Shown here one piece after another: positions 14,463 through 35,400 of a stretch of 64,000 nucleotides of DNA. The stretch covers positions 1 to 64,000 of the forward strand of contig JAJPJV010000003.1 of NCBI GenBank assembly GCA_021324045.1, written 5' to 3'. The DNA comes from Actinomycetota bacterium (GTDB lineage Bacteria; Actinomycetota; Acidimicrobiia; Acidimicrobiales; RAAP-2). The notes beneath the pieces are model-generated. The model saw nothing but the letters and a program-made list of their open reading frames with translations. It was not told the origin of the DNA and searched no databases. How positions within the stretch are numbered: the stretch's first letter is position 1; each line of letters starts with the position of its first letter. A program made the position numbers and the translations under genes.

Positions 14463-14500
14463 GCAAGGCCCGGGGATCCGGAGGGCCCTCAGGAGGAGAC

Positions 14501-15718
14501 ATGTCCATTACCTGGTTCATCTCCGTCGACGACCACCTCATCGAGCCGGCCCGGCTGTGGCAGGAGCGGGTCCCTGCGCGCTGGCGTGACCGCGCGCCGC
14601 GGATCGTGCGGGAAGGGGACTCGGAGTTCTGGGCCTACGAGGATCGCCAGATCGTCACCACGGGACTGAACGCCGTCGCTGGGAAGCGCCGCGAGGAGTT
14701 CACTCCCGAGCCGATCACCTACGAAGACATGCGACCCGGCTGCTACGAGCCGGCCGCTCGCGTGGCGGACATGGATCAGGGCTTCGTTCTTTCCTCGCTG
14801 TTGTTCCCTTCCTTCCCGCGCTACTGCGGACAGGTGTTCCACGAGGCCAAGGACAAAGAGCTTGCCCTCGTTTGCGTGAAGGCCTGGAACGACTTCATTC
14901 TCGAGGAGTTCGCCGGTGCCTATCCGGGCCGGTTCATTCCCATGATGCTCATCCCCTTGTGGGACCCGAGAGCCGCCGCGGCGGAGATCGAACGGACCGC
15001 GGCACTCGGCGCTAAGTCCATCGCCTTCTCGGAGAACCCCACCAAGCTCGGCCTTCCCTCGATTCATACCGACTACTGGGATCCGGTCTTCCGCGCGGCA
15101 GAAGAAGCGCAGTTCGTGATCTCGATGCACGTCGGCTCCTCTTCGAACCTGCTACGAACCTCCGACGACATGCCGACGCTTGCCTTCATGGCGTACTCGG
15201 CAGCTGCAAACCAAGCCGGGACACTTCTGGACTGGCTTTTCAGCGGCAAGTTCTCCCAGTTCCCCGGCCTAAAGATCGCTCTGTCGGAAGCTTCGATCGG
15301 TTGGATCCCCTATTTCCTCGAGCGCGCCGAACAGGTCGTCGACAAGCAGCGTTTCTGGGCTTCGCGCTTCGACATCAACATGAACCCCAACCACATCCGT
15401 GGCGAGGCCAAGAGCAAGGCCACGTTCTCCCTCGACACCGACATCCGCACGCTGTTCAAGGAACACGTCTTCGGCACCTTCATCGACGACCAGGCTGGGC
15501 TCCGCCTGCTCGACCTCATCGGCGAGGACAACGTGATGCTCGAGTGCGACTACCCCCACTCCGATTCGACCTGGCCCGACACCGTGAACCTCGCCCGAAA
15601 GTGGCTCGGCCACCTGCCCGAGGCCGTCCAACACAAGATCACGGTCGGCAACGCCGCGCGCGTCTACAACTTCACGCCTGCCGATCCCCCGACTGCACCT
15701 TCCCGTCCGGCCCACTAG
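14501..15718 (+). CDS. PF04909 amidohydrolase, DYPHSD subfamily
   Basis: A 405-residue TIM-barrel metal hydrolase of the Amidohydro_2 (ACMSD-like) family. The N-terminal metal motif is SVDDHLIEP, a strand motif SMHVGSSS supplies a His, and the metal-ligand Asp is in CDYPHSDSTWP near residue 349. ACMSD relatives decarboxylate or hydrolyse ring-derived acids; the substrate here is unknown. AGGAGG (14491-14496) 4 nt before the ATG at 14501 fixes the start. It is the first gene of an operon under the operator at 14449. Two close paralogues of this subfamily lie at 21281 and 40093. Confidence 0.9.
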   Translation: MSITWFISVDDHLIEPARLWQERVPARWRDRAPRIVREGDSEFWAYEDRQIVTTGLNAVAGKRREEFTPEPITYEDMRPGCYEPAARVADMDQGFVLSSLLFPSFPRYCGQVFHEAKDKELALVCVKAWNDFILEEFAGAYPGRFIPMMLIPLWDPRAAAAEIERTAALGAKSIAFSENPTKLGLPSIHTDYWDPVFRAAEEAQFVISMHVGSSSNLLRTSDDMPTLAFMAYSAAANQAGTLLDWLFSGKFSQFPGLKIALSEASIGWIPYFLERAEQVVDKQRFWASRFDINMNPNHIRGEAKSKATFSLDTDIRTLFKEHVFGTFIDDQAGLRLLDLIGEDNVMLECDYPHSDSTWPDTVNLARKWLGHLPEAVQHKITVGNAARVYNFTPADPPTAPSRPAH

Positions 15719-15753
15719 AGCCGGGCCGAAGTCGCCCACCCTGAAGCGCTGCG

Positions 15754-16914
15754 GTGCCCCCATTGGACTCCCCGCCGCCTCCCCTACTTTCAGCGGATCA
15801 CGTGGCATTCCAGGCGGTGTGCCGGAAGTTCGTCGAAGAACAGGTCACTCCGCTGGTAGCCGAGGCCGAAGAGAAACAGCGGTTCCCAACGTCACTGTGG
15901 CGGCGGATGGGTGATGCCGGTCTCCTGGGGCTTGGCTTCCCCGAGGAGGTCGGTGGTGCTGGAGGCGACCTGCTGAGCGTGGCGATATTGAGCGAGGAGC
16001 TGGCCAAAGCTTCTGGCGGGATCGCCATTACACCGCTGGTGAGCTCGTACATGGCCGCTCCTCATCTCTACCGGTTCGGACGCCCCGATCAGATGCGCGA
16101 ATACCTCGCACCGGTGCTCACCGGGCACAAAGTTGCAGCGATCGCGGTCACCGAACCCGATGCCGGATCAGATGTGGCCGGCATCACCCTGCGAGCCACC
16201 CCCGAAGGGGATGGCTACCTGCTCCGTGGCACCAAGCTGTTCATCACCAACGGCGGGATCGCCGACATCATCGTCGTCGCGGCGAAAACCGCGGGAGGCG
16301 ACGGCCACCACTCGATCACCACCTTCATCGTCGAAGCTGGCCAGCCTGGGTTCAGCGTCGGTCGGCCCCTTCGCAAGATGGGCTGGCACAGCTCCGACAC
16401 CCGCGAGCTGATCTTCGACGACTGCTTCGTTGGAGCCAATCGCGTGCTCGGCGAGGTCAACCGAGGCTTCTACCAGATCATGCAGGCCTTCCAAGAGGAA
16501 CGAGTCGTCTTGGCCGCCATGGGCGTCGGGCTGGCAGAGGCCTGCATCGAGGCGTCCGTCGCCTATGCCCGCCATCGCAAGGCGTTCGGCAGGCCGATCT
16601 CCAGCCTCCAGGCGATCCGTCACAGTCTCGCCCACATGCGTACACAAACCGAGGCCGCCCGCCTCCTGGTGTATCAGGCAGCCGTGCTCGCCGACGCCGG
16701 CGCGGACGCGGCCCAGGCAACGGCAATGGCCAAGCTCTTCGCGGCGCAAGTGGCCAACGACGTCGCTGATCGCTCCGTCCAGGTGTTCGGCGGCGCCGGA
16801 TTCCTCGAGGAGTCACCGGTCGCCATGCATTACCGGGACGCCCGCGTGCTCCGAATCGGCGGCGGCACCGACGAGATCCAACTCGAGATCCTGGCCAAGC
16901 TGATGAACCTGTGA
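15754..16914 (+). CDS. Acyl-CoA dehydrogenase
   Basis: A 386-residue flavoprotein of the acyl-CoA dehydrogenase family. Domain order is normal: helical N-terminus, middle beta domain (AVTEPDAGSDVAG; FITNGG), and C-terminal helical FAD domain (RKAFGRPISSLQAI; QVFGGAGF). It should desaturate an acyl-CoA at C2-C3, passing electrons to ETF. The usual catalytic Glu of the E-G-T motif is replaced by Gly (RIGGGTDEIQ), and no Glu is present at the isovaleryl-type position (RHRKAFG), so the base is unclear. The GTG start at 15754 follows the previous stop by 35 nt. It sits in the operon started by 14501. Confidence 0.92.
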   Translation: MPPLDSPPPPLLSADHVAFQAVCRKFVEEQVTPLVAEAEEKQRFPTSLWRRMGDAGLLGLGFPEEVGGAGGDLLSVAILSEELAKASGGIAITPLVSSYMAAPHLYRFGRPDQMREYLAPVLTGHKVAAIAVTEPDAGSDVAGITLRATPEGDGYLLRGTKLFITNGGIADIIVVAAKTAGGDGHHSITTFIVEAGQPGFSVGRPLRKMGWHSSDTRELIFDDCFVGANRVLGEVNRGFYQIMQAFQEERVVLAAMGVGLAEACIEASVAYARHRKAFGRPISSLQAIRHSLAHMRTQTEAARLLVYQAAVLADAGADAAQATAMAKLFAAQVANDVADRSVQVFGGAGFLEESPVAMHYRDARVLRIGGGTDEIQLEILAKLMNL

Positions 16915-16953
16915 TCGTGCTGACCAGGGGGGCGAACTGGTAAGAACCTGTCG

Positions 16954-18543
16954 GTGGCCAGGCAGCCAGACAGCGGTGGGAGACAATTCCTGCCTCAGGG
17001 TGAGCGAGGAACGCCGGAGCGGGGACCTTCGACCTCGAACCTCGAACGACTTCGCATGGCGACCGAGCGAGCCCGGGCGAGCGGTGATGCCAGCAGGCTC
17101 GTCAAAAAGCTGCCGGTCCGCCAACGCCTGGATCTGCTGTTCGATGAGGGAACCTTCGTCGAGGACGGGCTCTTAGCGAGGGCGCTGAGCGACGACCTCC
17201 CTGCTGACGGCGTCATTACCGGCATCGGTCAGGTCGGGGGTCGCCACGCCGCCGTGATCGCTCACGACCCAGCAGTCAAAGCAGGGACATGGGGCCTTTA
17301 CACCGTCGAGAAACAGATCCGCATCCTCGAACGGGCACTGGAGGACGTCCTCCCTGTCTTTTACCTCGTCGACTCCGCAGGGGGACGCCTTACCGAGCAA
17401 ACCAGCTTCTTCCCAGGCAGACGAGGTGCTGCCCGAATCTTCGATCTGCAAATCGCGCTCTCGGGAATGGTGCCGCAGATCTGCGTGATGCTCGGACCCG
17501 CGGTTGCCGGTGGTGCGTACATGCCGATGTTCTGCGACTGGGTCGGAATGGTCGAAGGGAACTCCTCAATGAGCTTGGCGTCTGCACGCGTCGCCGAGGT
17601 CGTCGTTGGTGAGAAGGTTTCACTCGACGACATGGGAGGCGCTCGGGTGCACACGACGATCTCGGGCTGCGCTGACGAACGCTTCGAGGACGATGCGACC
17701 GCGATTGACCGGGCATGGGACCTCTTCGGCTACTTGCCCAAGGACTCCCAGTCGGATCCACCGCGAGCTCCCTCGCGGCCACCAGCAGCCAACGATTGGC
17801 GAGGGGTCATTCCCGAGGACCCGAGGGCAGGCTACGACACCAGAGAGATCATCGAGCGAGTCATTGACGCCGGATCGTTCTTCGAGATCAAACGCGAATG
17901 GGCCCCAGAGATCGTCGTCGGGTTCGGCCGCATCGAGGGCAGGGTCGTCGGCATCGTCGCCAACCAACCGATTGTCAAAGGTGGGGCGATCTTCGTCGAC
18001 TCTGCCGACAAGGCGGCACGCTTCATCACCTGGTGCGACGCGTTCAACATCCCCTTGGTGTTCCTCGTCGACGTCCCAGGGTTTATGGTGGGGTCAGCCG
18101 TAGAGCATGCCGGAATCCTCCGCCACGGTGCCAAGATGATCAGCGCGATGGCTCGAGCCGAGGTTCCGCGCTTCTGCGTCGTCGTGCGCAAGGCATACGC
18201 CGCGGGCTACTACGCAATGTCGTGTCCAGGCTTCCGACCTCGTGCCACCATCGCCCTCCCGACAGCAGAGATCGGCGCCATGTCTCCCGAAGCCGCCGTC
18301 GACGCTGTGTTCCGTCGGCGGACCGATGCGATGACTGATGCCGCCGAACGCGAGCGCTTCATCGCAGCTCGTCGCGCGGAGTACGGCGCAGACCTCGACT
18401 TGCTCAGGCTGGCATCGGACCTGCACGTCGACGCAGTCGTCGAGAACGAGGAACTGAGGAACGAGCTGGCGCGACGCCTCGCGGCGGCGGAAGGATGGTC
18501 ACGTCAGCCCCCGCGGCGCCACCAGCCCGTGTTGCCGGTATGA
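16954..18543 (+). CDS. Acyl-CoA carboxylase carboxyltransferase (beta) subunit
   Basis: A 529-residue carboxyltransferase with two crotonase-like halves. Oxyanion-hole signatures are GPAVAGGAYMP in the first half and YAAGYYAM in the second; VDVPGFMVG and EIGAMSPEAAVD are typical of AccD/PccB/MccB proteins. It transfers CO2 from biotin to an acyl-CoA. No biotin carboxylase or biotin carrier gene is in the window, so it must borrow an alpha subunit. In context it may carboxylate an unsaturated or branched acyl-CoA made by the dehydrogenase upstream, as in leucine or isoprenoid acid degradation. The next gene's ATG overlaps its stop. Confidence 0.92.
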   Translation: MARQPDSGGRQFLPQGERGTPERGPSTSNLERLRMATERARASGDASRLVKKLPVRQRLDLLFDEGTFVEDGLLARALSDDLPADGVITGIGQVGGRHAAVIAHDPAVKAGTWGLYTVEKQIRILERALEDVLPVFYLVDSAGGRLTEQTSFFPGRRGAARIFDLQIALSGMVPQICVMLGPAVAGGAYMPMFCDWVGMVEGNSSMSLASARVAEVVVGEKVSLDDMGGARVHTTISGCADERFEDDATAIDRAWDLFGYLPKDSQSDPPRAPSRPPAANDWRGVIPEDPRAGYDTREIIERVIDAGSFFEIKREWAPEIVVGFGRIEGRVVGIVANQPIVKGGAIFVDSADKAARFITWCDAFNIPLVFLVDVPGFMVGSAVEHAGILRHGAKMISAMARAEVPRFCVVVRKAYAAGYYAMSCPGFRPRATIALPTAEIGAMSPEAAVDAVFRRRTDAMTDAAERERFIAARRAEYGADLDLLRLASDLHVDAVVENEELRNELARRLAAAEGWSRQPPRRHQPVLPV

Positions 18544-20161
18544 CCCCGAGGAGGCGCACGCACGCGATGCCAGCCCGACCGAAGACGATCACCGAGACCC
18601 TCGACCACGTCTTGGAGGTGGATCCACAACGGCTGGCACTGAAGGGCCCCTCGGGTGTGCTCTCCTACGAGGAGCTCGATGCAGCGGCGAACAAGGCTGC
18701 TGCGGCGCTTCGGGAGATGGGCGTTGCCCAAGGAGACCGAGTGGCGGCATGCCTGCCCAACGATCTGGACATCGTGATCGCGTTCCATGGCACGATGCGA
18801 TTGGGTGCCATCTGGGTCGGCCTGAACCGGGCCTTGGCCGTCCCGGAGAAAGAGGCGCTCCTCGCCGAGGCCACCCCGACGGTCTTCCTTGCCGACCCCG
18901 ACACCGCCTCTGCGCACGAAGGACGTTGGCCGGTCGTCCGCGTCGATCCATCTGACCCCGCTTCGTCGTGGGCGATGGCGCTCAGCGCGGTAACCGGTGC
19001 GCCCCGCCCCCCGTCGCCGGACCCCGAGGCTCCGGCTGGCATCGCCTTCACGAGCGGCACCACTGGCCTGCCCAAGGGAATCGTCCACTCGCAGCGCAAC
19101 TTGCTACTCGCAGCGACCGCCATCGCCACCACCCGGAATTACGACGAAACGCTGCGGAAGGGAGATTGCCTCGCGCTCACCATCCTCAATCTGCAGGTGC
19201 TCACCACACTGTTGACAACCGCTGCAGGCGGGTGCTGCATCTTGACCGACCGGCGCGATGCCGCGGGGTCGCGCAATGGCTCGCCCGAGAGTCGGTGAAC
19301 GTCTGGAACGGTGTCCCCGCAATCCTTTATTCGATGGTCCACGACGAAGGAATCGACCCTGGCCTCCTCTCAGGCCTGCGAGAGGTCTGGACCGGCGGCG
19401 CGGCTTGTCCCGAGGACCTGTACCGAGCCTTCGAGGCGCGCTTTGGGATCCAACTACGCCAGTCCTACGGGCTCACCGAGGCACCCACGGTGGTAACGAT
19501 GGAACGAGTAGGCGACCACCACATCCCCGGGTCCAGCGGACGACCGCTCCCGCACCTCGAGGTGGTGATCCGCGATGACGCCGGACGCGACCTCCCGCCG
19601 AAAGAGCTTGGTGAGATCGTGGTCCGAGGCACTCGCCGAGGACCGTGGGCAAGCGTCTATACCCCGATGACGGGGTATTGGCACCGCGATCGGCTCGAGC
19701 CGTTCGAGGGGGACGAGCTGTACACCGGGGACGTTGGTTACCTCGACGACGCTGGCAATCTCTTCGTAAAGGATCGCAAGAAACTGGTGATCCTGCGCGG
19801 TGGCGCCAATGTCTACCCAGCCGAGGTCGAGCGAGTGATCGAAGCTGTCCCGGGCGTCCGGGGCAGCGCCGTACTCGGCATCCCCGACCCTCGTCTGGGT
19901 CAGCGGGTTGTCGCAGCGATCGAAGTGGACCAAGGGTTCGCACTCAGCCCGCAAGACCTCATCGAGCACTGTCGGGGACAACTCGCTCGATACAAGGTTC
20001 CCGAAGCGATCGTGATCGTAGACAGTCTTCCGCGCAACGCAATGGGCAAGGTACAGCGAGCGCAGCTCGGCGAACTTTTCGACCTCGATCGACCGGCTCC
20101 CCCGGGTGCCGCGCTGCCTGGCGCCGACAGTTCGGTCATCTCTGGTGCGAACGGCTCGTAG
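18540..20161 (+). pseudogene. AMP-forming acyl-CoA ligase interrupted by a one-base frameshift
   Basis: The two halves together form one ANL-superfamily ligase of about 540 residues. The first frame (from ATG 18540, overlapping the AccD stop) carries the P-loop FTSGTTGLPKGIVHS and stops at 19298. The second frame carries the remainder from about 19262: SYGLTEAPT, YTGDVGYLDDAG and KDRKKLVILRGGANVYPAEVE. The switch occurs at GGGG (19265-19268), where one extra G would restore a single frame. Causes could be a recent loss-of-function deletion, a sequencing or assembly error, or programmed slippage. Both halves keep all motifs and normal codon use, so decay must be very recent if real. The LLM gene overlaps its end. 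Confidence 0.82.
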
Positions 20162-21270
20162 TGGAACTCGACTGTTACGTCCTGGGTACTGACGTCGCTT
20201 CGATCGGCGACGCTGCCGTTCGCCTGGAGGCCGGTGGCCACGGGTGCATGTGGAGCATCGAGTCCCAGTACGACCCGTTCCTACCCCTGCTCGTCGCCGC
20301 GTCGCGCACCTCGACTATGCGGGTGGGGACGAACATCGCGGTCGCGTTCGCGCGCAACCCGATGACCGTGGCGCAGACCGCGCATGACCTCCAGCGCTTC
20401 TCGAGGGGACGCTTCATCCTGGGTCTGGGTCCTCAAGTTCGAGCACACATCGAGCGGCGCTTTTCGATGCAATGGTCGAGCCCGGCACGCCGCATGCGCG
20501 AGTTCGTCCTTGCGCTCAGGGCGATATGGACGGCATGGGAAACGGGATCTCCTCTCGACTTTTCCGGCGAGTTCTACCGTCATACGTTGACGGGGCCGAA
20601 TTTCGATCCGGGACCAACCGGCTACGGCCCGCCACCGGTGTGGCTGGCCGCGGTGGGACCAAAGATGGTCGCGGTCACCGGCGAAGTGGCCGACGGGCTC
20701 CTCTGCCATCCCCTTACGACCCCGGAGTACCTGTCGAAGGTGATCTTGCCCATCGCGGAGCGCGCCCGTCTGCAGCGCGACGCTCCAGGTGACTTCTCCA
20801 TCGTCGTCTCCGTCCTGGGAGCGACCGGTCCCGACGACGCAGCGATCAATGCCTCAGTGCACAACGTTCGGAGGAAGATCGCGTTCTACGCTGCGACGCC
20901 TGCACACCGGCCGATGCTCGAGCTGCACGGCCTTGGGGACCTCCAACCGAAATTGAACACTCTGGCTCGGCAAGGCCGCTGGGATGAGATGGCGGCTGCC
21001 ATCGATGATGGCGTCCTCGACCGGTTCGCCGTCGTGGGCTCCCCGGGGGAGATCGGGCAAGCAGTCCGGAAGCGCTTCGCCGGGCTGGCTGATCGGGCCA
21101 CGATCTACGAGCTCGATGCCATGGGTCGCCTCGATCTGGAGCAGCGGCACCTTGCCGAACCACAGTCCCTGCGCGACCTCATGGCAGGGTTCCTGGGGAA
21201 GGCAGAGGACGCCTACCTGGATACACCGTCACAAGGCAAAAGCGATCGAGCCCGGTCTTCCGAGGAGTGA
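20161..21270 (+). CDS. LLM-class F420-dependent oxidoreductase (TIGR03617-like)
   Basis: A 369-residue luciferase-like monooxygenase-fold protein. Typical blocks are MRVGTNIAVAFARNPMTVAQ, RFILGLGPQV, and AAVGPKMVAVTGEVADGLLCHP. Relatives bind coenzyme F420 or FMN in the TIM barrel and reduce or oxygenate carbonyl or ring compounds. The GTG at 20161 shares its first base with the TAG of the preceding ligase, so translational coupling is likely. A longer frame runs back to 19645 but only overlaps the ligase. Another LLM gene in the window, at 31434, is a distinct subgroup. Confidence 0.88.
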   Translation: MELDCYVLGTDVASIGDAAVRLEAGGHGCMWSIESQYDPFLPLLVAASRTSTMRVGTNIAVAFARNPMTVAQTAHDLQRFSRGRFILGLGPQVRAHIERRFSMQWSSPARRMREFVLALRAIWTAWETGSPLDFSGEFYRHTLTGPNFDPGPTGYGPPPVWLAAVGPKMVAVTGEVADGLLCHPLTTPEYLSKVILPIAERARLQRDAPGDFSIVVSVLGATGPDDAAINASVHNVRRKIAFYAATPAHRPMLELHGLGDLQPKLNTLARQGRWDEMAAAIDDGVLDRFAVVGSPGEIGQAVRKRFAGLADRATIYELDAMGRLDLEQRHLAEPQSLRDLMAGFLGKAEDAYLDTPSQGKSDRARSSEE

Positions 21271-21280
21271 AGGAGCGGCC

Positions 21281-22477
21281 ATGACGACGTTTTTGCCAGA
21301 ACCGGAACGACGCACCCGCTATTTCACGGTGATCTCCGTCGATGATCACATCGTCGAGCCTCCCGAGATGTTCCTCCGAAGGGTTCCGACCAAATTCGTC
21401 GCACGCGCCCCCCGCGTCGTACGCGAAGCCGACGGCACCGAGATGTGGCTCTACGATGGCGAGCTCATCCCCAATATCGGTCTCAATGCCGTCGCCGGTC
21501 GACCTCCACGTGAGTACAGCCGCGACCCAGTCACCTTCGACGACATGCGCCGAGGCGCATGGGACATCCACGCTCGCATCGCAGACATGGACCTCGACGG
21601 TGTGTTCGCCTCGCTGAACTTCCCGTCGTTTTTGACAGGCTTTGGCGGAGGAAGACTCCAGACGACCACCAAGGATCAAGACCTGGCACTCGCCGTGATC
21701 CGGGCATGGAACGACTGGCACCTCGAGGAGTGGGCAGGCTCGTACCCGGATCGGATCATCCCCTGCCAGATCACCTGGCTCCATAATCCGGTGCTTGCCG
21801 CCAAGGACGTCGAACGCAACCGGGAACGTGGATTTCGGGCTTTGAGCTTTCCCGAACTCCCTGACCGTCTCGGGTTCCCCCCGGTCCACTCTTCCTTCTG
21901 GGATCCCCTCTTTGCCGCTTGCGAGGCCACGGGAACCGTCGTCTGCCTTCACGCAGGCTCGGGAGGAACGCTGCTCGGAACCTCTGAAGGGGCGCCGCGG
22001 GAAGCCACCGCCGCCTTCTTCGGGCTCTCAGCCATCATCCCGGCGATCGATTGGCTTTTTGCACTCGTTCCCGTCCGATTCCCCGAACTCAAGATCGTGC
22101 TTGCAGAAAGTGGCATCGGATGGGTCGCGGCACTCCTCGATCGCCTGGATCACCTGGCGCGCTACCACGAATGCTATGGCGACTGGCGAGGGACCGACCT
22201 CTCGCCATCTGAGGTGCTATTACGCAATTTCTGGTTCTGTATGCTCGACAACCCCTCTTCTTTGTGCCAGAAGGAGCGGATCGGCATTCACAACATCTTG
22301 TGCGAGGTCGATTACCCTCATGCCGATTCCTCCTGGCCGAACACCCAGGATTCCCTTCGTCGGCAGTTGAGGGCATTGGAACCCTGGGAGGTCGATCAGG
22401 TCACCTGGAAGAACGCGTCCGAACTGTTCGGCTTCCCTGTGCCCCAACGCGTACGGCGAGACCCCAACGCCTTCTGA
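21281..22477 (+). CDS. PF04909 amidohydrolase, DYPHAD subfamily
   Basis: A 398-residue ACMSD-like TIM-barrel hydrolase and a paralogue of 14501 and 40093. Motifs in order: SVDDHIVEPPEMF (metal site), CLHAGSGG (strand His), LAESGIGWV, and CEVDYPHADSSWP (metal Asp). AAGGAG about 7 nt before the ATG at 21281 fixes the start. It closes the operon that begins at 14501, so the operon starts and ends with members of one subfamily. This suggests two sequential hydrolytic or decarboxylating steps, or two stereo- or chain-specific isozymes. Confidence 0.9.
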   Translation: MTTFLPEPERRTRYFTVISVDDHIVEPPEMFLRRVPTKFVARAPRVVREADGTEMWLYDGELIPNIGLNAVAGRPPREYSRDPVTFDDMRRGAWDIHARIADMDLDGVFASLNFPSFLTGFGGGRLQTTTKDQDLALAVIRAWNDWHLEEWAGSYPDRIIPCQITWLHNPVLAAKDVERNRERGFRALSFPELPDRLGFPPVHSSFWDPLFAACEATGTVVCLHAGSGGTLLGTSEGAPREATAAFFGLSAIIPAIDWLFALVPVRFPELKIVLAESGIGWVAALLDRLDHLARYHECYGDWRGTDLSPSEVLLRNFWFCMLDNPSSLCQKERIGIHNILCEVDYPHADSSWPNTQDSLRRQLRALEPWEVDQVTWKNASELFGFPVPQRVRRDPNAF

Positions 22478-22919: not shown

Positions 22920-24146
22920 GTGAACGAGCCTGACAGCACCGACAGCGACGAGGCACCTCTCGACCTGGCAAGGATGCGTCGGGATCGCCGAGCACGCCTC
23001 GTCTCTGAGATGCACGCACGGGGCATCGGGACCCTCCTGCTCACAGGAACGAGCACCGTCCAGTACGGGGTCGGCGACGTTCGCCCGGTGGCCGACGCGT
23101 CGCACGCGCTCTACGAACAGTGTGCTGCAGTCCTCATCGCAGGCGACGACCTCCCCCATCTCTTTACCCCCTTCCCCGACCGTTGCCCGCCCGAGCTTGT
23201 CGTTGACCACTGCCATCCACCGCTGCATCTGGCCACTCCAGAAGGTGTACAGGCGTTGGCCACTGCCCTTCGCGAGATCGCCGGCGGGCCAGTTCCCGGG
23301 CCGCTCGCCCTCGACGAAGCAACTGGAGCGCTGTACTTCGAGCTCTCGAAACTTCTCGACAACCTCACCGTGGTAGACGCCAGCGAGGCGCTCACAGCCG
23401 CAAAGATCATCAAGACGCCCGACGAGATCCTGTGCATCGAGCGAGCCCAGCGCATCAACGAGGCCGCAATGTATGACATCGAGGCAGCACTCCGGCCTGG
23501 CATCCGACAGTCGGAGCTCACCGGGCTCTTCCTACGGCGGATCTTCGAGCTCGGAGCAACCGGTCTCTGCGTGGACCCGATCTGGCAGCCGATGCCGCTG
23601 TCCCGAGCCCAAGGTCCCTTCACGGTGAATGGCGACGTCGCATTCCCGCTGTGCGCGAACGATCGGATGCTCATGGAAGGCGACCTCGTCTGGGTCGACA
23701 TGGGGATCGATTATCACGGCTATGCCTCTGACTTCGGCACCACCTGGATCGTCGCCCGCAACCCCAAGCCGACGCCCCGTCAACACAGCCATTTCGAGCG
23801 CTGGAAGGACGTGGTTGCCGCCACGTTGACTGCCACCCGTCCTGGAGCCACCGGTGGCGACCTTGTCCGGGCCGCAACCGAAGCGAACGCAGGGAAGCGC
23901 CCGTGGCTCGATCACTTCTACCTCATCCACGGCATCGGGACCTTCAGTGCCGAGATGCCTCTCATAGGGAGCGACCTCGGCCCTGCCTTCGACGAATCGA
24001 TCGTTCTGGCACCTGGGATGCTCATGGTGCTCGAGCCCGTGATCTGGGAAGAAGGAGTGGGAGGCTATCGATTCGAAGAGGTCGTGGTGGTCACCGAGAA
24101 CGGTTATCGGCGCCTCAGCTCCTACCCCCATACACCCTATGAATAA
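22920..24146 (+). CDS. M24 family metallopeptidase (Xaa-Pro dipeptidase-like)
   Basis: A 408-residue pita-bread-fold enzyme with an N-terminal creatinase-like domain and a C-terminal catalytic domain. All five metal ligands are visible: the two Asp in VDMGIDYHGYASDF, the His in LIHGIG, and the two Glu in VLEPVIW and RFEEVVVV. It should be an active di-metal hydrolase cleaving X-Pro or a similar amide bond. The GTG at 22920 with a GGGGA site upstream is preferred over a GTG at 22854. It is immediately followed by a paralogue that has lost the ligands. Confidence 0.88.
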   Translation: MNEPDSTDSDEAPLDLARMRRDRRARLVSEMHARGIGTLLLTGTSTVQYGVGDVRPVADASHALYEQCAAVLIAGDDLPHLFTPFPDRCPPELVVDHCHPPLHLATPEGVQALATALREIAGGPVPGPLALDEATGALYFELSKLLDNLTVVDASEALTAAKIIKTPDEILCIERAQRINEAAMYDIEAALRPGIRQSELTGLFLRRIFELGATGLCVDPIWQPMPLSRAQGPFTVNGDVAFPLCANDRMLMEGDLVWVDMGIDYHGYASDFGTTWIVARNPKPTPRQHSHFERWKDVVAATLTATRPGATGGDLVRAATEANAGKRPWLDHFYLIHGIGTFSAEMPLIGSDLGPAFDESIVLAPGMLMVLEPVIWEEGVGGYRFEEVVVVTENGYRRLSSYPHTPYE

Positions 24147-24149
24147 GGC

Positions 24150-25382
24150 TTGGGAACGGTGGTGGCGACCCTGAGAGGCGACGCTCTCCTCGGCCTCGAT
24201 GAGCGGGGCACCGGTGTCCTCCCGCTCGAAGAGGGCGGGAGAGTGGACTTCCATCGGCTCCGGGCGCAACGTCTGGAGCGGTGTCGAACGGAGATGGCAC
24301 GCGATGACCTCGACGCGTTGTTGCTCGGGAACGAGGCGAACGCGCGCTACGCGAGCGGCGCGCGCCGTCTTTGGCTCGGCGGCAGCCGTCCATATGTCCC
24401 GGGATGCATCGTGCTGCCCGACGGGCAGCCGTATGTCATGAGCACCTGGGACGATGGAATCCCCCCTGACATCCCCCGGACGAACCTGTTCGGGGCCTCG
24501 TGGAACCCGGAGAATCACGTCAAGGTCCTCGCATCGATCGAAGGTCTGCGGGCGGCACGGCGCGTTGGTGTGGACGGGATGACACCGCTCATGGCGTCCC
24601 TGATTTCTTCGGCCCTGCCTGACGCGGAGCTCGTCGACGCCGGGCCCACCATGATCCGGGCGCGCCAAGTGAAGACTCCCGACGAACTTGCATGCATCCG
24701 AGCGGCAATCGCCGTCACCGAGTCGTCCCTCGGTTGGGCACTCGATGCCCTTCGACCGGGGATCACCGAACGGGCACTGTTCGGGCACTTCACCGAACGC
24801 CTCGGAGCGCTCGGTCTCACGCTCTCCGCTACCCAGTGCACGTTCGTGGTCCTCTCCGGTGACGGGAGCCAGCGCCGCATGCCTCGTCGGACAGGGACCA
24901 ACCACTGCGTCAATCCCGGCGACCTGGTCGCACTCGACGCTGGCGCCCTCTACGCGGGATACGAAGGCTCGGTAGCCCGCACGTTCAGCTGCCCCGGGGG
25001 CACGGACAACGCCAGGGCGGCAGAACGGCGACTCTACGACCGCGCCCGAGCCGTCCACGAGGCACTCGTCGCCGCGTGCCGGCCGGGCGTCACCGCCCAG
25101 GACGTGGTCCACGTCTACGAAGCATCCGGGGAGCCAGTACCCGAGCTCCCAGTGGTCTTTGGGGTCGGGCTTGGAATGGAACCGCCGCTTGCTGGGGCTC
25201 ACCTCCCGAGCGACGCAGGGGGCACGACGACACTGGTCCCGGGAATGGTGCTTGCGCTGCAGACCTACGTGCACGAGGAAGGGACCGGCGGATATCTCCA
25301 GCGCGACGTAGTCCTCGTGGGACAAGAGGGTTCCACGTTGCTCACGAGCCACTCACGTGGAGGTGACGATGCCAATCGATGA
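24150..25382 (+). CDS. M24 family protein lacking metal ligands (creatinase-like or pseudoenzyme)
   Basis: A 410-residue paralogue of the preceding M24 gene with the same two-domain layout. Aligned with its neighbour, only the first Asp remains (LVALDAGALY). The second Asp is Ser (YEGSVA), the His is Phe (VVFGVGLG), and the two Glu become Gln (LALQTYV) and Arg (YLQRDVVLV). It therefore cannot hold a di-metal centre. Creatinase is a known metal-free M24 enzyme but keeps its His. It might be a regulatory partner forming a heterodimer with 22920, or a new activity. The TTG at 24150 follows the previous stop by 3 nt; a GTG at 24159 is an alternative. Confidence 0.82.
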   Translation: MGTVVATLRGDALLGLDERGTGVLPLEEGGRVDFHRLRAQRLERCRTEMARDDLDALLLGNEANARYASGARRLWLGGSRPYVPGCIVLPDGQPYVMSTWDDGIPPDIPRTNLFGASWNPENHVKVLASIEGLRAARRVGVDGMTPLMASLISSALPDAELVDAGPTMIRARQVKTPDELACIRAAIAVTESSLGWALDALRPGITERALFGHFTERLGALGLTLSATQCTFVVLSGDGSQRRMPRRTGTNHCVNPGDLVALDAGALYAGYEGSVARTFSCPGGTDNARAAERRLYDRARAVHEALVAACRPGVTAQDVVHVYEASGEPVPELPVVFGVGLGMEPPLAGAHLPSDAGGTTTLVPGMVLALQTYVHEEGTGGYLQRDVVLVGQEGSTLLTSHSRGGDDANR

Positions 25383-30136: not shown

Positions 30137-31354
30137 ATGGACCGCCAAGCGTTCGAGTACGGGCTGGCACGACGGTTGCTCGACCACATCGAGCACCACA
30201 CCACCGACCTTGCCGATTCGGTGCTCGAAATTCCTGCTCAGACGTATACCTCGCCCTCGCGCTACGCCGAAGAGGTCGAGGTCCTCTTCTACGGCCGCCC
30301 ACTGGTGCTCTGCCTCTCTGGAGCCTTGGAGCCAGGGAGCTATCTGACCATCGACATCGCAGGAACGCCGATCCTTGTCACCAGGGACCGGGAGGGCCGG
30401 GTGCACTCGATGCTCAATGCCTGCCGTCACCGGGGCGTCCGGGTCGTCGATGGCTCCGGGAAGCAGACACGGTTCAACTGCCCCTTCCACGCCTGGACCT
30501 ATGACCTCACGGGGCGGTTGGTCGGAGTCCCCACCGGAGATGCTTTCGAAGGCATGTGTCGTGAGGACAAGGGGCTCATCGAGCTCCCCGTGGCCGAAGG
30601 CCATGGGTTGGTCATCGGAAGCCTGCGACCGGGTCCTGCCCTCGACGTCGACGACTACCTCGGACCCGAACTGGCCGACGAGCTCGCCATGCTGGATTTT
30701 GCCGATTGGCGTCCCTACACCGACTCGCACCTGCATCGAGTGGGTGCGAACTGGAAGGTCACGCTCGACACCTTCCGGGAGAACTACCACTTCAACCAAC
30801 TCCATCGGAAGACCCTCAGTGGCTACGCCTACGGTGGCGCGCTCACCTTCGACGCGTTCGGGCCGCATCTGCGCAACTGCTCGGCCGTGCGCACGATCGA
30901 TCAGATCCGCGGGCGTCCGGAAGCAGAATGGGGCGACGTCTCGCCGCATGTCACCCCTCAGTACTCGCTCTTCCCCAACACCTGCCTCACCGTCGACTGC
31001 CGGCACATCGAGCTCTGGCAGATCCTCCCGGTCGACGAGAAGACTTCCGAGGTCGTCCATACCGCGTACCTTCGGCCGGGCCTGTCGGAGGAGGAGTCGG
31101 CGAAGCTCGCAGAGATGGCACCGTGGATCTGCAAGGCGGTGGTCGACGGCGAAGACTTCTGGGTCGCGGGTCGAACGGAACCCGGACTGCGGACCGGCCT
31201 CATCGACACGGTGGTCTTCGGGCGGAACGAGCCCGCCCCCCAGCATCTGCATCGCGGCTTCGAGGCCGCGCTCGTCGCCGCTCGGAACGGATCCTCTGTC
31301 GGGCAAGCTGATCATCGGCTTCGAACGGAACGCTCCGGGTCGTCGGCTTCGTAG
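30137..31354 (+). CDS. Rieske non-haem iron oxygenase, alpha subunit
   Basis: A 405-residue ring-hydroxylating-type oxygenase. The Rieske [2Fe-2S] ligands are in CRHRGVR and CPFHAW (about residues 95-118). The mononuclear iron site is ENYHFNQLH (about residue 217) with the preceding Asp in DTFREN bridging the centres. It hydroxylates or demethylates an aromatic, steroid-like or quaternary-amine substrate using reduced ferredoxin. GGGGAGGA before the ATG at 30137 fixes the start over an ATG at 30080. It heads an operon with an LLM oxidoreductase, a large 2-oxoacid oxidoreductase and an EthD protein. Confidence 0.92.
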   Translation: MDRQAFEYGLARRLLDHIEHHTTDLADSVLEIPAQTYTSPSRYAEEVEVLFYGRPLVLCLSGALEPGSYLTIDIAGTPILVTRDREGRVHSMLNACRHRGVRVVDGSGKQTRFNCPFHAWTYDLTGRLVGVPTGDAFEGMCREDKGLIELPVAEGHGLVIGSLRPGPALDVDDYLGPELADELAMLDFADWRPYTDSHLHRVGANWKVTLDTFRENYHFNQLHRKTLSGYAYGGALTFDAFGPHLRNCSAVRTIDQIRGRPEAEWGDVSPHVTPQYSLFPNTCLTVDCRHIELWQILPVDEKTSEVVHTAYLRPGLSEEESAKLAEMAPWICKAVVDGEDFWVAGRTEPGLRTGLIDTVVFGRNEPAPQHLHRGFEAALVAARNGSSVGQADHRLRTERSGSSAS

Positions 31355-31433
31355 CCGGACCGACCGCCGCGCCCGGTGGACCCCATGCCGATGCTCCGAG
31401 CGAATCCGCTGGCGTGCGGGTGATGCGCAGCCC

Positions 31434-32471
31434 ATGAGGCCCTCCGCCGCGTCGCCGGCCACCACTGTGGGTCTCATGCTCCCTACCCTGGCCAATCCCA
31501 ATGACCCCGCACTCGACCCCCGGCGCACGCTCGAGGCGGCGCGTCGCGCAGAGGCTGGCGGCTTCGACGGCGTCTACGTCGGTGACCACGTGCTCCACCC
31601 GCGCCCGCTGCTCGAATCGGTCGTCACGCTCAGCGCCATCGCTGCATCGACCGAACGGGTGCACTTCGGTCCCTGCGTCCTGTTGCTCGCCCTCCGCCAA
31701 CCGCTGGTGCTCGCCAGACAGCTCGCGACGCTGGCGAGTTTCGCTCCTGGGCGTCTCCGGGTCGGAGTGGGCGTCGGGGGCGAGTACCCCGAGGAATTCA
31801 AGGCGCTCGGGATCCCGCTGGCCGAGCGCGGGCGGCGCATGGAGGAAGGGTTGCGAGCCGTGCGGGCGCTGCTTTCCGACATGGCCTCCCGACAGGGCAC
31901 GACGAGCACCGGCGGCGAGGCATTGCACAGGAGCGAGCAAGGACACGCGACGACCACCACTTCGGGTGACATTCCGTTCTTCTTGGGCGGCTGGCACGAG
32001 CGCGCGCTGCGACGAGCCGCCCGCTACGGCGACGGCTGGATCGGTTACCTCCTTGGGCCCGAGAGTTTCACCCGCCGGCGAGCCTTCCTCTGGCACTGCC
32101 GCGCAGCGCTCGGTGCGTCCGCTCTGCCATTCACGACCGGCATGGTGGTCCCCGTCCACGTTGCCCCGTCCGCTGAACCCCGTTCCTCCCATGGCGCCGG
32201 TGGCTCGGTCGCCGCGATACAGGTTTGGGCAGCTGCGGCATGGGCGGAGCTCACCGCGACCAGCCACGCGTTCCCCGAGAGGCTGTTCGTAGCCGGACCC
32301 CCTGGAGCGGTGGTCGAGCAGTTGCATGCCTACTGCACCGCCGGGTGCACGGAGCTCGTGCTCGCACCAGTCGACCAAGGCGCCGGCTACCTTCGCCAGC
32401 TCGATCTGCTCGCCGAGCACGTGCTCCCGGCCCTCAAGGCCTTCCGTGAGCCGCTCGGTAGAGTGCCATGA
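31434..32471 (+). CDS. LLM-class (F420-type) oxidoreductase
   Basis: A 345-residue luciferase-like protein: VGLMLPTLANPND at the start, GFDGVYVGDHVLHPRP, VHFGPCVLLLALRQP, then FAPGRLRVGVGVGGEYPEEF and FFLGGWHERALRRAARYGDGW. These are typical of F420-dependent members such as Rv3520c of Mycobacterium, which sits beside ltp4 and ltp3 there. It should reduce or oxidise a ketone or unsaturated acyl group. A longer frame back to 30375 only overlaps the Rieske gene and is rejected. Its stop overlaps the ATG of the next gene (ATGA). Confidence 0.88.
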   Translation: MRPSAASPATTVGLMLPTLANPNDPALDPRRTLEAARRAEAGGFDGVYVGDHVLHPRPLLESVVTLSAIAASTERVHFGPCVLLLALRQPLVLARQLATLASFAPGRLRVGVGVGGEYPEEFKALGIPLAERGRRMEEGLRAVRALLSDMASRQGTTSTGGEALHRSEQGHATTTTSGDIPFFLGGWHERALRRAARYGDGWIGYLLGPESFTRRRAFLWHCRAALGASALPFTTGMVVPVHVAPSAEPRSSHGAGGSVAAIQVWAAAAWAELTATSHAFPERLFVAGPPGAVVEQLHAYCTAGCTELVLAPVDQGAGYLRQLDLLAEHVLPALKAFREPLGRVP

Positions 32472-35400
32472 GTGAGCATGTGCTCAGTTGCAATCCAGGG
32501 ACGGCTGTGACCGATCTCGCCGAACGAAGCGCGACGAGCACCATCTTGTCAGGGGTCGAAGCGCTTGCCCGGCTCCTCGTCCTTCGTCACCAGGTCGACG
32601 AGCGAGACGGGCTCGACACCGCCACCATGGTGTCGGGATATCCAGGATCGCCCCTGGGCGAGTTCGACCTGACCCTCGAGGCGATGGGAGACCTGCTCCG
32701 CACCCATCGCATCTTGCATCGCCCGGGTCTCAACGAGGAGCTTGCGGCAGCCATCGTCTGGGGCAGCCAGATGGGAGGAACGATCCCCTACGTCAACGTC
32801 GACGGTGTCGCCGGCGCGTGGTACGGCAAGTCGCCCGGCCTGGACCGCAGCGGGGACGCGCTCAAGCACGGTAATGCCATGGGGGCCGGGCCGGCTGGGG
32901 GCGTCGTCCTGTTCTGCGGCGACGATCCGACGGCCAAGTCCTCGACGTTGGCCTGCGACAGCCAGTACGCCCTCCAGGACGCCTGTATCCCCGTACTGTT
33001 CCCGGGCAACCAACAGGAGATCGTGGACCTGGGCATCCATGCGTTCCGGATGTCTCGCTACTCGGGCGCGTGGGTGGCCCTCAAGATCGTCACCGCGATC
33101 GCCGACGGCATCGGAACTGTCGATCTTGATCCTCGCCGACACCATCCCAGCGATCCGGTCGGGGTCGTCATCGACGGGCAACCCTGGCAGCACCGTCCCC
33201 TTGCCACCATTGGTGCGCACCCGGTGCCCAACCAGGAAGCCTTGCTGCTGCAGCGACTCCTCGCAGCGCAGGCCTACGCAGCCCACAACGGTCTGGACCC
33301 AGTATTGGGCAGCGAGCCCGGGGCGCGGCTCGGGATCGTCTGCGCAGGGAAGACGGCGTTCGACGTGCTCCAGGCCTTCGCGGATCTCGGCGTGACGGAC
33401 CTCGCTGCGGCTGGGGTCAGGATCCTCAAGCTCGCAATGACCTATCCGCTCGTCGAACGCACCGTCGTCGAGTTCGCGACCTCCGTGGAGGAGATCGTGG
33501 TCGTCGAGGAGAAGCGCCCGTTCGTCGAGACGCAGCTCCGTCACATCCTCCACGAGCACCGCAGCACCGTCGGGGTCCTCGGCAAGCGAGACGCGAGCCA
33601 TGCCGAGCTGGTCCCAGCAGTGGGCGAGCTCGACCCGGCTGTGATCGCCGACATTTTGGTGCGCGTGCTTCCCGACCTGAAAGGGCGCGCCCGCGCGCCA
33701 TCAGGTCGGCCGGCCGCCACCGGGACGGTCCCCACGAGCACCTCCTTGGCTCTTCCCCTCCCGGGCCGACCACCGGCGTACTGCAGCGGGTGTCCCCACA
33801 ACCGCTCGACGCGCTTCCCCCAGGGAGCCCTCGTCGGTGGTGGCGTCGGCTGTCACGGGATCATGTACTTCGAGGCGCGCAACAGGGGCATGAAGAGCCT
33901 GCCGCCCACGCCGATGGGGGCCGAAGGGGTTCCGTGGATCGGTTTGTCGCCATTTGTCTCAGAACCGCATCTCATCCAGAACCTCGGTGACGGAACGCTG
34001 AGCCACTCGGGCATCCTCGCCATCCGTGCCGCCGTTGCGGCTGGAGCCAACATCACGTTCAAGATCCTCTACAACGCAGCGGTCGCCATGACCGGTGGCC
34101 AAGAGGTCACCGGATTGATGGACGTTCCTTCGCTTACCAGGGCACTGGAAGCCGAAGGGGTGAACGAGATCGTGGTGTGCGCCGAGGACCCCTCCCATTA
34201 CGGGCGCCATGCGCGCTGGGCGCGCGGCGTCGAGGTGCTCGGGCGCGACCGGCTCCCAGAGGTCCAAGAGCGACTCCGCCATGTCCCCGGGGTGACAGCG
34301 ATCATCTATGACCAACGCTGTGCCGCAGAGGCACGCCGGCTACGCAAGCGCGGCCTGTTGGCCGAACCGCCGCACCGGGTCTTCATCAATGCGGCGGTCT
34401 GTGAGGGCTGTGGCGACTGCAGCACGAAGAGCAACTGCCTCTCGGTCCTTCCCCATGACACCGAGTTCGGCGAGAAGCGTCGGATCGAGGACTCCAGCTG
34501 CAACCGGGACTACACCTGCCTCGAGGGCGATTGCCCTTCCTTCGTCACGATCACCCCCAAGCCCCCGAGGCGACGGCATCAGCACCGCAAGGGGGCCCGA
34601 GGTCTTCTCCGCAGCGGCGCAGGCTCGAGCGCGCCCCCGATCGTCCGGCCGACGTTGCCGAGCGGCGTTCTCCCGGATCCCCCGATGGCTGAGCTGGGTC
34701 GCCAGTACGGCATCTGCTTCACCGGCATCGGGGGCACCGGGGTCGTCACCGCCAGCCGGCTCATCGCCAGGGCTGCCCAAGCCGCCGGCCTGGTCGTTGG
34801 CGGCATGGACCAGACGGGACTGTCGCAAAAGGCCGGGGCCGTCATCTCGCACCTGCACCTCGCCAGGGACCTCAAGGCAATCGGCGCTCCCACCGTCGGG
34901 GTCCAGGGCGCCGACCTCTACCTCTCGGGCGACATTCTCCAGGCCGCCAGCCCGATCCATCTCGATCGCGTCAAGCCTGGACGAACCCTGGCGGTTGTCG
35001 ATCGCGCACTCAGCCCGACCTCGGCAATGCTCCAGAATGCCCTCTCTGCGCCCGAGGTTCCCGCCCTCCAGCAAGCGATCACGGATCGGGTCGGCGCCGG
35101 GCGCGTCGCGTTCGTGGACGCAAGACGCATCGCCGAGCTCGTCTTCGCCGATCACCTGGTTGCGAACATCGTGCTCTTGGGGGCGGCCTTCCAGCTCGGT
35201 GGTCTGCCGCTCTCACTCGCCGATATGGAGCGTGCCCTCGCCACGGCCGGCCGCGGAACCGATCGCAACCGTGAGGCCTTCGAGTGGGGGCGCTGGATCG
35301 TCCATGACCCCCGAGCAGTCCAACGAGCACTCCTGGACGCCGAGCGCGAGGCGTACGCGGAGGCAGACGGCATCTTCGACCCGACCCCGGGGGCCCTTGC

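Follow-up and report, generated by a model that had tools for sequence, protein, structure and literature searches.

Two neighbouring M24-family genes in the 64,000-nucleotide stretch of Actinomycetota DNA analysed here (hereafter, the window) appear to encode the two subunits of a single enzyme. We infer a heterodimer in which the N-terminal domain of a partner that lacks the metal ligands (hereafter, the pseudoenzyme) would act as a lid over the metal site of the other, active subunit, and in which this composite site would carry out a non-peptidase reaction on a small molecule as part of a catabolic pathway. Judged chiefly from comparisons among related sequences, we consider this reading likely.

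The gene pair in the window

Both proteins belong to family M24, with PF00557 scores of 112.8 bits for the first and 91.8 bits for the second against a Pfam curated cut-off of 23 (Table 1). In alignment the first protein retains all five metal ligands (D260, D271, H337, E372 and E386), as the initial annotation had read them. The second has D263, S274, F337, Q371 and R385 at the same five columns, which agrees with the earlier reading of one kept ligand and replacement of the others by Ser, Phe, Gln and Arg. The tight gene arrangement described there was likewise seen: 3 nt separate the two M24 genes, and the P450 gene, whose start codon was chosen in this analysis, overlaps the second of them by 14 nt.

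Table 1. Features of the M24 pair and its neighbours, with positions counted from the first letter of the window.
Feature	Position	Strand	Evidence or detail
Metal-site (active) M24 subunit, 408 aa, GTG start	22920..24146	+	PF00557 112.8 bits; DDHEE kept; AF2 pLDDT 78.7
Active subunit, ligand codons D260 to D271	23697..23732	+	
Active subunit, ligand H337 codon	23928..23930	+	
Active subunit, ligand codons E372 to E386	24033..24077	+	
Ligand-less M24 partner (pseudoenzyme), 410 aa, TTG start	24150..25382	+	PF00557 91.8 bits; ligand columns D,S,F,Q,R; AF2 pLDDT 84.2
Pseudoenzyme N-domain, residues 36-172, proposed to cover the metal site of the active subunit as a lid	24255..24665	+	Conservation and length in 26 relatives; fusions in four genomes
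Pseudoenzyme pita-bread domain, residues 173-403, apparently eroding in relatives	24666..25358	+	Length 164-247; second Asp lost in 26/26
Cytochrome P450	25369..26631	+	PF00067 80.1 bits; overlaps pseudoenzyme stop by 14 nt
Amidohydrolase (PF04909), ending 442 nt ahead of the pair on the same strand	21278..22477	+	Profile match

Recurrence of the pair

The window pair is not the sole copy in its genome. A second pair lies on a different contig, and between the two pairs the pseudoenzymes are 47% identical and the active partners 53%. Among 61 genomes (the source and 60 relatives) the pseudoenzyme gene was found in seven; it adjoined the active gene in six of these, and in the seventh the two genes lay at the ends of different contigs. 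A scan of the collection yielded 25 named loci from several phyla, with 37-48% identity to the window pseudoenzyme. Their hosts were Mycobacterium species, Mycolicibacterium moriokaense, Acidimicrobiaceae and other Actinomycetota MAGs, and also MAGs labelled Proteobacteria and Deltaproteobacteria. The active gene was directly upstream of the pseudoenzyme gene in 24 of the 25 loci, and the 25th pseudoenzyme gene begins at a contig end. A start codon that would make the two genes overlap by 4 nt was available in 21 of the 24 pairs, a count in which the start nearest the upstream stop was taken and which describes available start codons.

A profile search for adjacent M24 pairs in other genomes, the check proposed in the initial annotation, confirmed that the pair co-occurs. 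The phylum sample of 396 genomes contained 16 pseudoenzyme genes (at least 390 bits) and 16 active genes, all adjacent and all in the same 12 genomes; nine more genomes had unrelated M24 proteins only, which scored at most 166 bits against the pseudoenzyme profile. For the class sample of 247 genomes, a broader pseudoenzyme profile retrieved 28 genes (at least 256 bits) in 24 genomes and the active profile retrieved 29 genes (at least 490 bits) in 25 genomes, the class profiles including many of the sequences that they retrieve. All 28 pseudoenzyme genes adjoined an active gene, and 28 of the 29 active genes adjoined a pseudoenzyme gene; the lone active gene extends to base 5047 of a 5049-base contig. 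Six of the 28 pseudoenzyme matches span a stop codon. The profile searches score few candidates per genome, so that distant members can be missed, and the divergent reversed-order type described below is one of these. Co-occurrence of the pseudoenzyme and active genes was close to absolute.

Co-inheritance alone is no proof of contact: genes for consecutive steps of a pathway are kept together as well.

Phylogeny and selection

In a midpoint-rooted tree of 44 proteins, the 17 pseudoenzymes formed one clade (support 100/99) and the 16 active proteins formed another (100/100). The two clades neighboured each other, apart from 10 of the 11 other M24 proteins; the eleventh, L025, which belongs to a divergent reversed-order pair, was placed on the active side (90/79). 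The distance matrices of pseudoenzymes and active partners were correlated at r = 0.95, a value reached by none of 2000 permutations.

Nine comparisons between close relatives gave dN/dS values for the pseudoenzyme gene of 0.09-0.29 (N-domain) and 0.16-0.25 (C-domain). The values for the active gene in the same comparisons were 0.10-0.43 and 0.06-0.17, respectively. Purifying selection acts on both halves of the pseudoenzyme gene. A lone degenerate gene or pseudogene was ruled out by these ratios and by the one-to-one pairing with the active gene. We concluded that the window pair was not the product of chance or decay, because a second pair is present in the genome, the pair recurs elsewhere and the pseudoenzyme dN/dS lies between 0.09 and 0.29.

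Ligand patterns across relatives

The DDHEE set was kept in all 26 aligned active pair members, and in 14 of 14 lone M24 proteins used as controls. The second Asp was missing from all 26 pseudoenzymes, none of which retained more than two of the five ligands. The first Asp was kept in five of them, the His in seven, the first Glu in nine and the second Glu in three, although strongly eroded members align uncertainly in the His and Glu columns. In a narrower alignment of 27 pseudoenzyme rows the window protein alone had the first Asp, and retention of this residue is uncommon. Arg replaced the first Asp in eight of the 26 members, seven of which kept the first Glu; a salt bridge between the two could replace the metal in these proteins.

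No His, Asp, Glu or Cys of the pseudoenzyme C-domain was invariant or nearly so across the 26 diverse relatives, and on this ground alternative metal ligands were rejected as a trait of the whole family. The residues E179, E272 and E344 were invariant in a narrower set of 24 rows, and an alternative site may yet exist in the subclade that this set represents.

Crossed conservation of the two domains

The pseudoenzymes were better conserved in the N-domain and their active partners in the C-domain. This was examined in a set of 24 pairs comprising WIN, WIN2 and 22 of the 25 loci (L049, L050 and L051, affected by a contig end or a gap in the sequence, were dropped). Mean pairwise identity per column was 0.524 (N-domain) and 0.467 (C-domain) for the pseudoenzymes, as against 0.460 and 0.628 for the active proteins, and a set of 11 pairs below 65% identity gave results of the same sign. 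In a set of 26 pairs hand-picked for diversity, the pseudoenzyme N-domain (0.486) again exceeded the C-domain (0.348), and the active N-domain (0.402) fell below the C-domain (0.547). The interaction in this set was 0.282 (95% column-bootstrap interval 0.206-0.358), in tests that resample columns and ignore phylogeny. Omitted from it, among others, were L112, L113 and L123, which are short or lie at a contig end; L125, L126 and L128, which resemble other available loci or share a genome or contig with them; and L100, which is of the divergent type. The direct pseudoenzyme-minus-active difference in the N-domain was small: 0.064 (0.004-0.128) in the 24-pair analysis and 0.083 (0.021-0.143) in the 26-pair set. 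Fourteen lone M24 proteins, which were hand-picked from lower-scoring matches of the class pseudoenzyme-profile search, showed the ordinary order (N-domain 0.361, C-domain 0.452).

Domain lengths were 138-142 residues (N-domain) and 164-247 residues (pita-bread) in the 26 pseudoenzymes, whereas the active partners showed the reverse pattern (120-147 and 241-253 residues, respectively). Pseudoenzyme residues 60-105, the region where the lid loop is expected, had a mean identity of 0.60 versus 0.46 in the active counterpart. Such crossed conservation would be expected of a pair whose working site combines the active pita-bread domain with the pseudoenzyme N-domain.

Parts of the pseudoenzyme C-domain stay conserved (residues 261-270, mean 0.67 in the 24-pair set; the three Glu residues named above; dN/dS of 0.16-0.25), an observation that counts against the proposed lid arrangement.

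Divergent and fused forms

Genome G036 contains a divergent pair in reversed order. Its partner protein, P0003 (a 325-codon open frame), has a full N-domain and a collapsed pita-bread domain, and is directly followed by an active-type protein. The arrangement in G613 is similar, with the active gene read in two frames. Four other genomes (G490, G554, G550 and G456) have one open frame that encodes a partner-type N-domain and then a DDHEE catalytic domain, the pita-bread domain of the partner being absent. A search of the class sample with the four fused proteins found the divergent type in 5 of 247 genomes, namely these four and G613.

The fused N-domains are 44-52% identical to the stand-alone G613 partner over 83-177 residues. 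The stretch between the fused domains, linker included, measures 101, 139 and 112 residues in G490, G554 and G550, respectively, and 22 residues in G456; among the four fused proteins, the active chain's own N-domain is clearly lost in G456 only. Profile scores of the fused N-domains favour the pseudoenzyme lineage, narrowly for L102 (38 vs 35 bits) and with weak pseudoenzyme-lineage scores of 24 and 23 bits for L101 and L109, and the probable assignment to that lineage depends in part on these modest scores.

Structure models

Single-chain AF2 models showed a pita-bread fold for both proteins (mean pLDDT 84.2 for the pseudoenzyme and 78.7 for the active protein). M24 structures matched both models, with 50 matches listed at Z 24-35. 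Among the matches listed, the best for the pseudoenzyme model were prolidase 5cde (Z 35.2) and creatinase (Z 34.7-34.9), and the best for the active model were ectoine hydrolase (Z 33.0), prolidase (31.4) and DddP (30.2). The low-confidence stretches of the active model include residues 56-64, 232-246 and 339-347, which by sequence lie near the lid and ligand regions; weak stretches of this kind could be expected if the partner is missing.

Predicted chemistry and gene neighbourhood

M24 peptidases have two catalytic His residues, equivalent to His243 and His361 of E. coli aminopeptidase P (AMPP). In the active family, position D1-17 was Pro and position H+7 was Ala in 25 of 25 parsed members (26 were aligned and one was unparsed), and we take these positions to be those of AMPP His243 and His361. 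The lone M24 controls had His at D1-17 in 13 of 14 cases and at H+7 in 8 of 14. The substitution H243A is reported to leave E. coli aminopeptidase P inactive (PMC10377022). The active family lacks the catalytic His (as in AMPP His243/His361) by which an M24 peptidase is recognised, and with Pro and Ala at both catalytic-His positions a peptidase role for the metal subunit is improbable. The initial annotation had called the first protein an active hydrolase. This description stands as far as the metal site is concerned (DDHEE intact), but it is qualified by the loss of both M24 peptidase catalytic His residues to Pro and Ala.

Neighbouring genes within ~6 kb were surveyed at 54 pair loci, of which 52 are distinct (L028/L137 and L043/L142 are repeats), and at 14 lone-M24 loci. 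An amidohydrolase was present at 25 pair loci versus 1 lone locus, an SDR at 24 versus 2, a P450 at 19 versus 0, and an acyl-CoA dehydrogenase at 15 versus 0. These counts use names from home-made profiles, with some genes named by Pfam or NCBIfam scan and a few by eye; mycobacteria account for 11 of the 19 P450 loci, which makes the loci non-independent, and several neighbourhoods end at contig ends. Judged from coordinates, 15 of the 52 pair loci have the amidohydrolase as the next gene upstream, in the same orientation. The P450 family of the window recurs at 48-63% identity beside 12 of the 25 loci, in two orientations. On a plasmid of M. branderi the gene order is ferredoxin, P450, amidohydrolase, active, pseudoenzyme, and this P450 is only 24% identical to that of the window.

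Strict dependence on a P450 was rejected, given its presence at 19 of 52 loci and the low identity of the M. branderi P450 to the window's. The coupling to a P450 put forward in the initial annotation is thus partial: a P450 does recur beside the pair, but an amidohydrolase does so more frequently. The type of cluster suggests that a small molecule, hydrophobic or cyclic, is catabolised.

In M. numidiamassiliense, as a single case, hydantoinase A/B genes adjoin the pair.

Discussion

The initial annotation had left a choice between a heterodimer with a regulatory or substrate-binding pseudoenzyme and a new cofactor-free activity. We favour a heterodimer with a substrate-binding pseudoenzyme, because the two genes co-occur one-to-one and adjacent to each other, have starts available at 4-nt overlaps, show crossed conservation and are represented by gene fusions. 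The two proteins would form a heterodimer, or a dimer of heterodimers, in which the pita-bread domain of the first subunit would contain a complete dinuclear-metal site. The second subunit would have lost its own site, and would have been kept since its N-domain would serve as lid and tunnel wall over the site of the first. Its dead pita-bread domain would remain mainly as a dimerisation platform, and such a role would account for the erosion of this domain and, in one divergent lineage, for its loss by N-domain fusion. The path of whittling may have run from a full-length partner to one with a shortened pita-bread domain, then to one with little beyond the N-domain, and lastly to an N-domain fused to the active chain. 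For the metal subunit, the probable role is that of a hydrolase or lyase, other than a peptidase, acting on a small molecule in CoA-linked catabolic clusters, where its gene is set beside an amidohydrolase and often a P450.

Adjacency and one-to-one co-occurrence would also fit a partner that regulates or inhibits the first protein by binding it outside the catalytic pocket, and regulatory and scaffolding pseudoenzymes have been described (PMC11266112). We regard this as unlikely, because such a role alone does not predict that the N-domain should be the half that is better conserved (residues 60-105 at 0.60 vs 0.46 in the active counterpart), nor that fusions should retain just a partner-type N-domain. 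Somewhat less probable again is that the second protein is a separate cofactor-free enzyme, which would perform another step of the same pathway and would not need to touch the first. Co-operonic genes often do encode successive steps, the pseudoenzyme model scores nearly alike against creatinase (Z 34.7-34.9) and prolidase (35.2), and the narrower set of 24 rows shows no variation at E179, E272 and E344. However, a catalytic half with no invariant or nearly invariant His, Asp, Glu or Cys among 26 diverse relatives, which is down to 164 residues in some of them, more eroded in P0003 and absent from the fused forms, is difficult to reconcile with an enzyme of its own, and the new cofactor-free activity is disfavoured on these grounds. 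That the second gene is a decaying, functionless duplicate of the first is very improbable: its ligand replacements differ between lineages, as decay would have it, but this reading is refuted by purifying selection (dN/dS 0.09-0.29) and co-occurrence, and the protein has 37-48% identity to the window protein in 25 loci of several phyla and belongs to a separate supported clade.

Returning to the lid model, we lean, with less assurance than for the heterodimer itself, towards a broader picture. The pair would represent an M24 enzyme of two subunits, widespread in bacteria and with a composite site, in which the pseudoenzyme was whittled by degrees to a fused N-domain, and which catalyses a new non-peptidase reaction in catabolic clusters containing P450 and amidohydrolase genes. 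If true, this would provide a bacterial model of a homodimeric enzyme that split into catalytic and lid subunits, and would show a dead subunit eroding towards the one domain that matters. The M. branderi pair is annotated as M24/Xaa-Pro peptidase; genes so named in Mycobacterium and environmental Actinomycetota would be reassigned to a two-subunit enzyme, one that could not be assayed from one gene alone. The lid model makes a testable prediction of which half of the pseudoenzyme is functional.

Comparison with known systems

A literature search, judged mainly from abstracts, returned no operon-encoded bacterial M24 enzyme/pseudoenzyme pair and no P450 context for one. Among structures, the ectoine hydrolase EutD/DoeA (6twk, 6yo9) was the best listed match of the active model (Z 33.0 over 361 residues, rmsd 3.2); we know of no pseudoenzyme partner for this enzyme. 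Assignment to ectoine hydrolase was rejected, with scores against NCBIfam TIGR02993 of 21.9 bits (active) and 27.4 bits (pseudoenzyme) and a cut-off of 613. Creatinase (1chm, 1kp0, 7yto), a metal-free M24 relative that is itself catalytic, was among the best listed matches of the pseudoenzyme model (Z 34.7-34.9 over ~355 residues, rmsd 2.6). The likeness is by fold only: the pseudoenzyme family has no catalytic set conserved across its diversity, and its C-domain appears to be eroding.

The DddP DMSP lyases (4b28, 4rzy) resemble the proposed enzyme in their M24 fold, five ligands and non-peptidase chemistry. They do so in dimer architecture too: the active-site tunnel of a chain is walled by the partner chain's N-domain, which enters the open pita-bread (PMC4108388). 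DddP differs in being a homodimer (PMC4108388). Identity with DddP was rejected, the scores against NCBIfam NF043017 being 55.6 bits (active) and 24.5 bits (pseudoenzyme) versus a cut-off of 600. EBP1/PA2G4 is likewise an M24 pseudoenzyme that has lost metal ligands, with two of the five kept, but it is MetAP-like and eukaryotic and, as described, is not paired in an operon (PMC11266112).

A heterodimer of M24 enzyme and pseudoenzyme has been proposed in C. elegans, where PID-5 has an M24 pseudoenzyme domain related to the active M24 protein APP-1 (PMC10377022). That system differs from ours in being a eukaryotic aminopeptidase P outside any bacterial operon, in the eTudor domain of PID-5, and in the retention by PID-5 of at least one His and one Glu ligand (PMC10377022). 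Its heterodimer was predicted and co-enrichment had been reported earlier (PMC10377022); no erosion series is known to us from that system.

Heterodimers of a metalloenzyme and a site-less homologue are already known from the M16 peptidases. In MPP alpha/beta one subunit has the metal site and the homologous site-less subunit helps to form the active centre, and prokaryotic homologues of MPP are encoded by two-gene operons (PMC11266112). MPP belongs to an unrelated peptidase family, M16, with another architecture. The pair described here resembles it in having homologous subunits, one with and one without a metal site, that are encoded together.

Fused forms and gene neighbourhoods of the M24 pair

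Single-ORF fusions were found in four genomes, each joining an N-domain of the pseudo M24 partner's type to a pita-bread domain that carries the DDHEE metal ligands (Table). A divergent M24 pair in genome G036 (L099:3199-5306) has the gene order reversed, with the partner, its pita-bread domain collapsed, placed first and the active-type M24 directly after; the region downstream holds an ORF that, judged by eye, resembles a flavin monooxygenase, together with a P450 homologue (25%). In genome G429, one mycobacterial pseudo M24 copy (G429:C132) contains a TGA, a possible break, inside its profile match, and a second M24 pair in that genome has no TGA in the match.

Two related amidohydrolases, 37% identical to each other, lie on either side of further ORFs in the window (14498-22477), and the cluster extends on through 30140-36049.

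The M. branderi plasmid NZ_AP022607 carries an operon-like run (L098:6042-11104) of ferredoxin, P450, amidohydrolase and then the active and pseudo M24 genes, adjoined by a mycofactocin-coupled SDR. A VOC/glyoxalase-type protein of ~150 aa (L044:7128-7580 and relatives) directly follows the pair in 10 mycobacterial loci, and one MAG labelled Deltaproteobacteria has it in the vicinity of the pair. In M. numidiamassiliense (L040:580-4685), the active M24 ORF begins 11 nt past the end of hydantoinase B and A genes, which may hint at a cyclic amide as substrate.

Table. Cluster features in the window and fusion ORFs from other genomes
Feature	Location	Description
Two amidohydrolases with the ORFs between them	window 14498-22477	intervening ORFs, judged by eye: acyl-CoA dehydrogenase-, carboxyltransferase-, CoA ligase- and luciferase-like monooxygenase-looking
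Rieske oxygenase	window 30140-31354	cluster continuation
Indolepyruvate ferredoxin oxidoreductase family protein	window 32468-36049	cluster continuation
Fusion ORF	L101:547-2022	partner-type N-domain + DDHEE pita-bread domain
Fusion ORF	L102:1525-3087	partner-type N-domain + DDHEE pita-bread domain
Fusion ORF	L104:760-2238	partner-type N-domain + DDHEE pita-bread domain
Fusion ORF	L109:1462-2646	partner-type N-domain + DDHEE pita-bread domain
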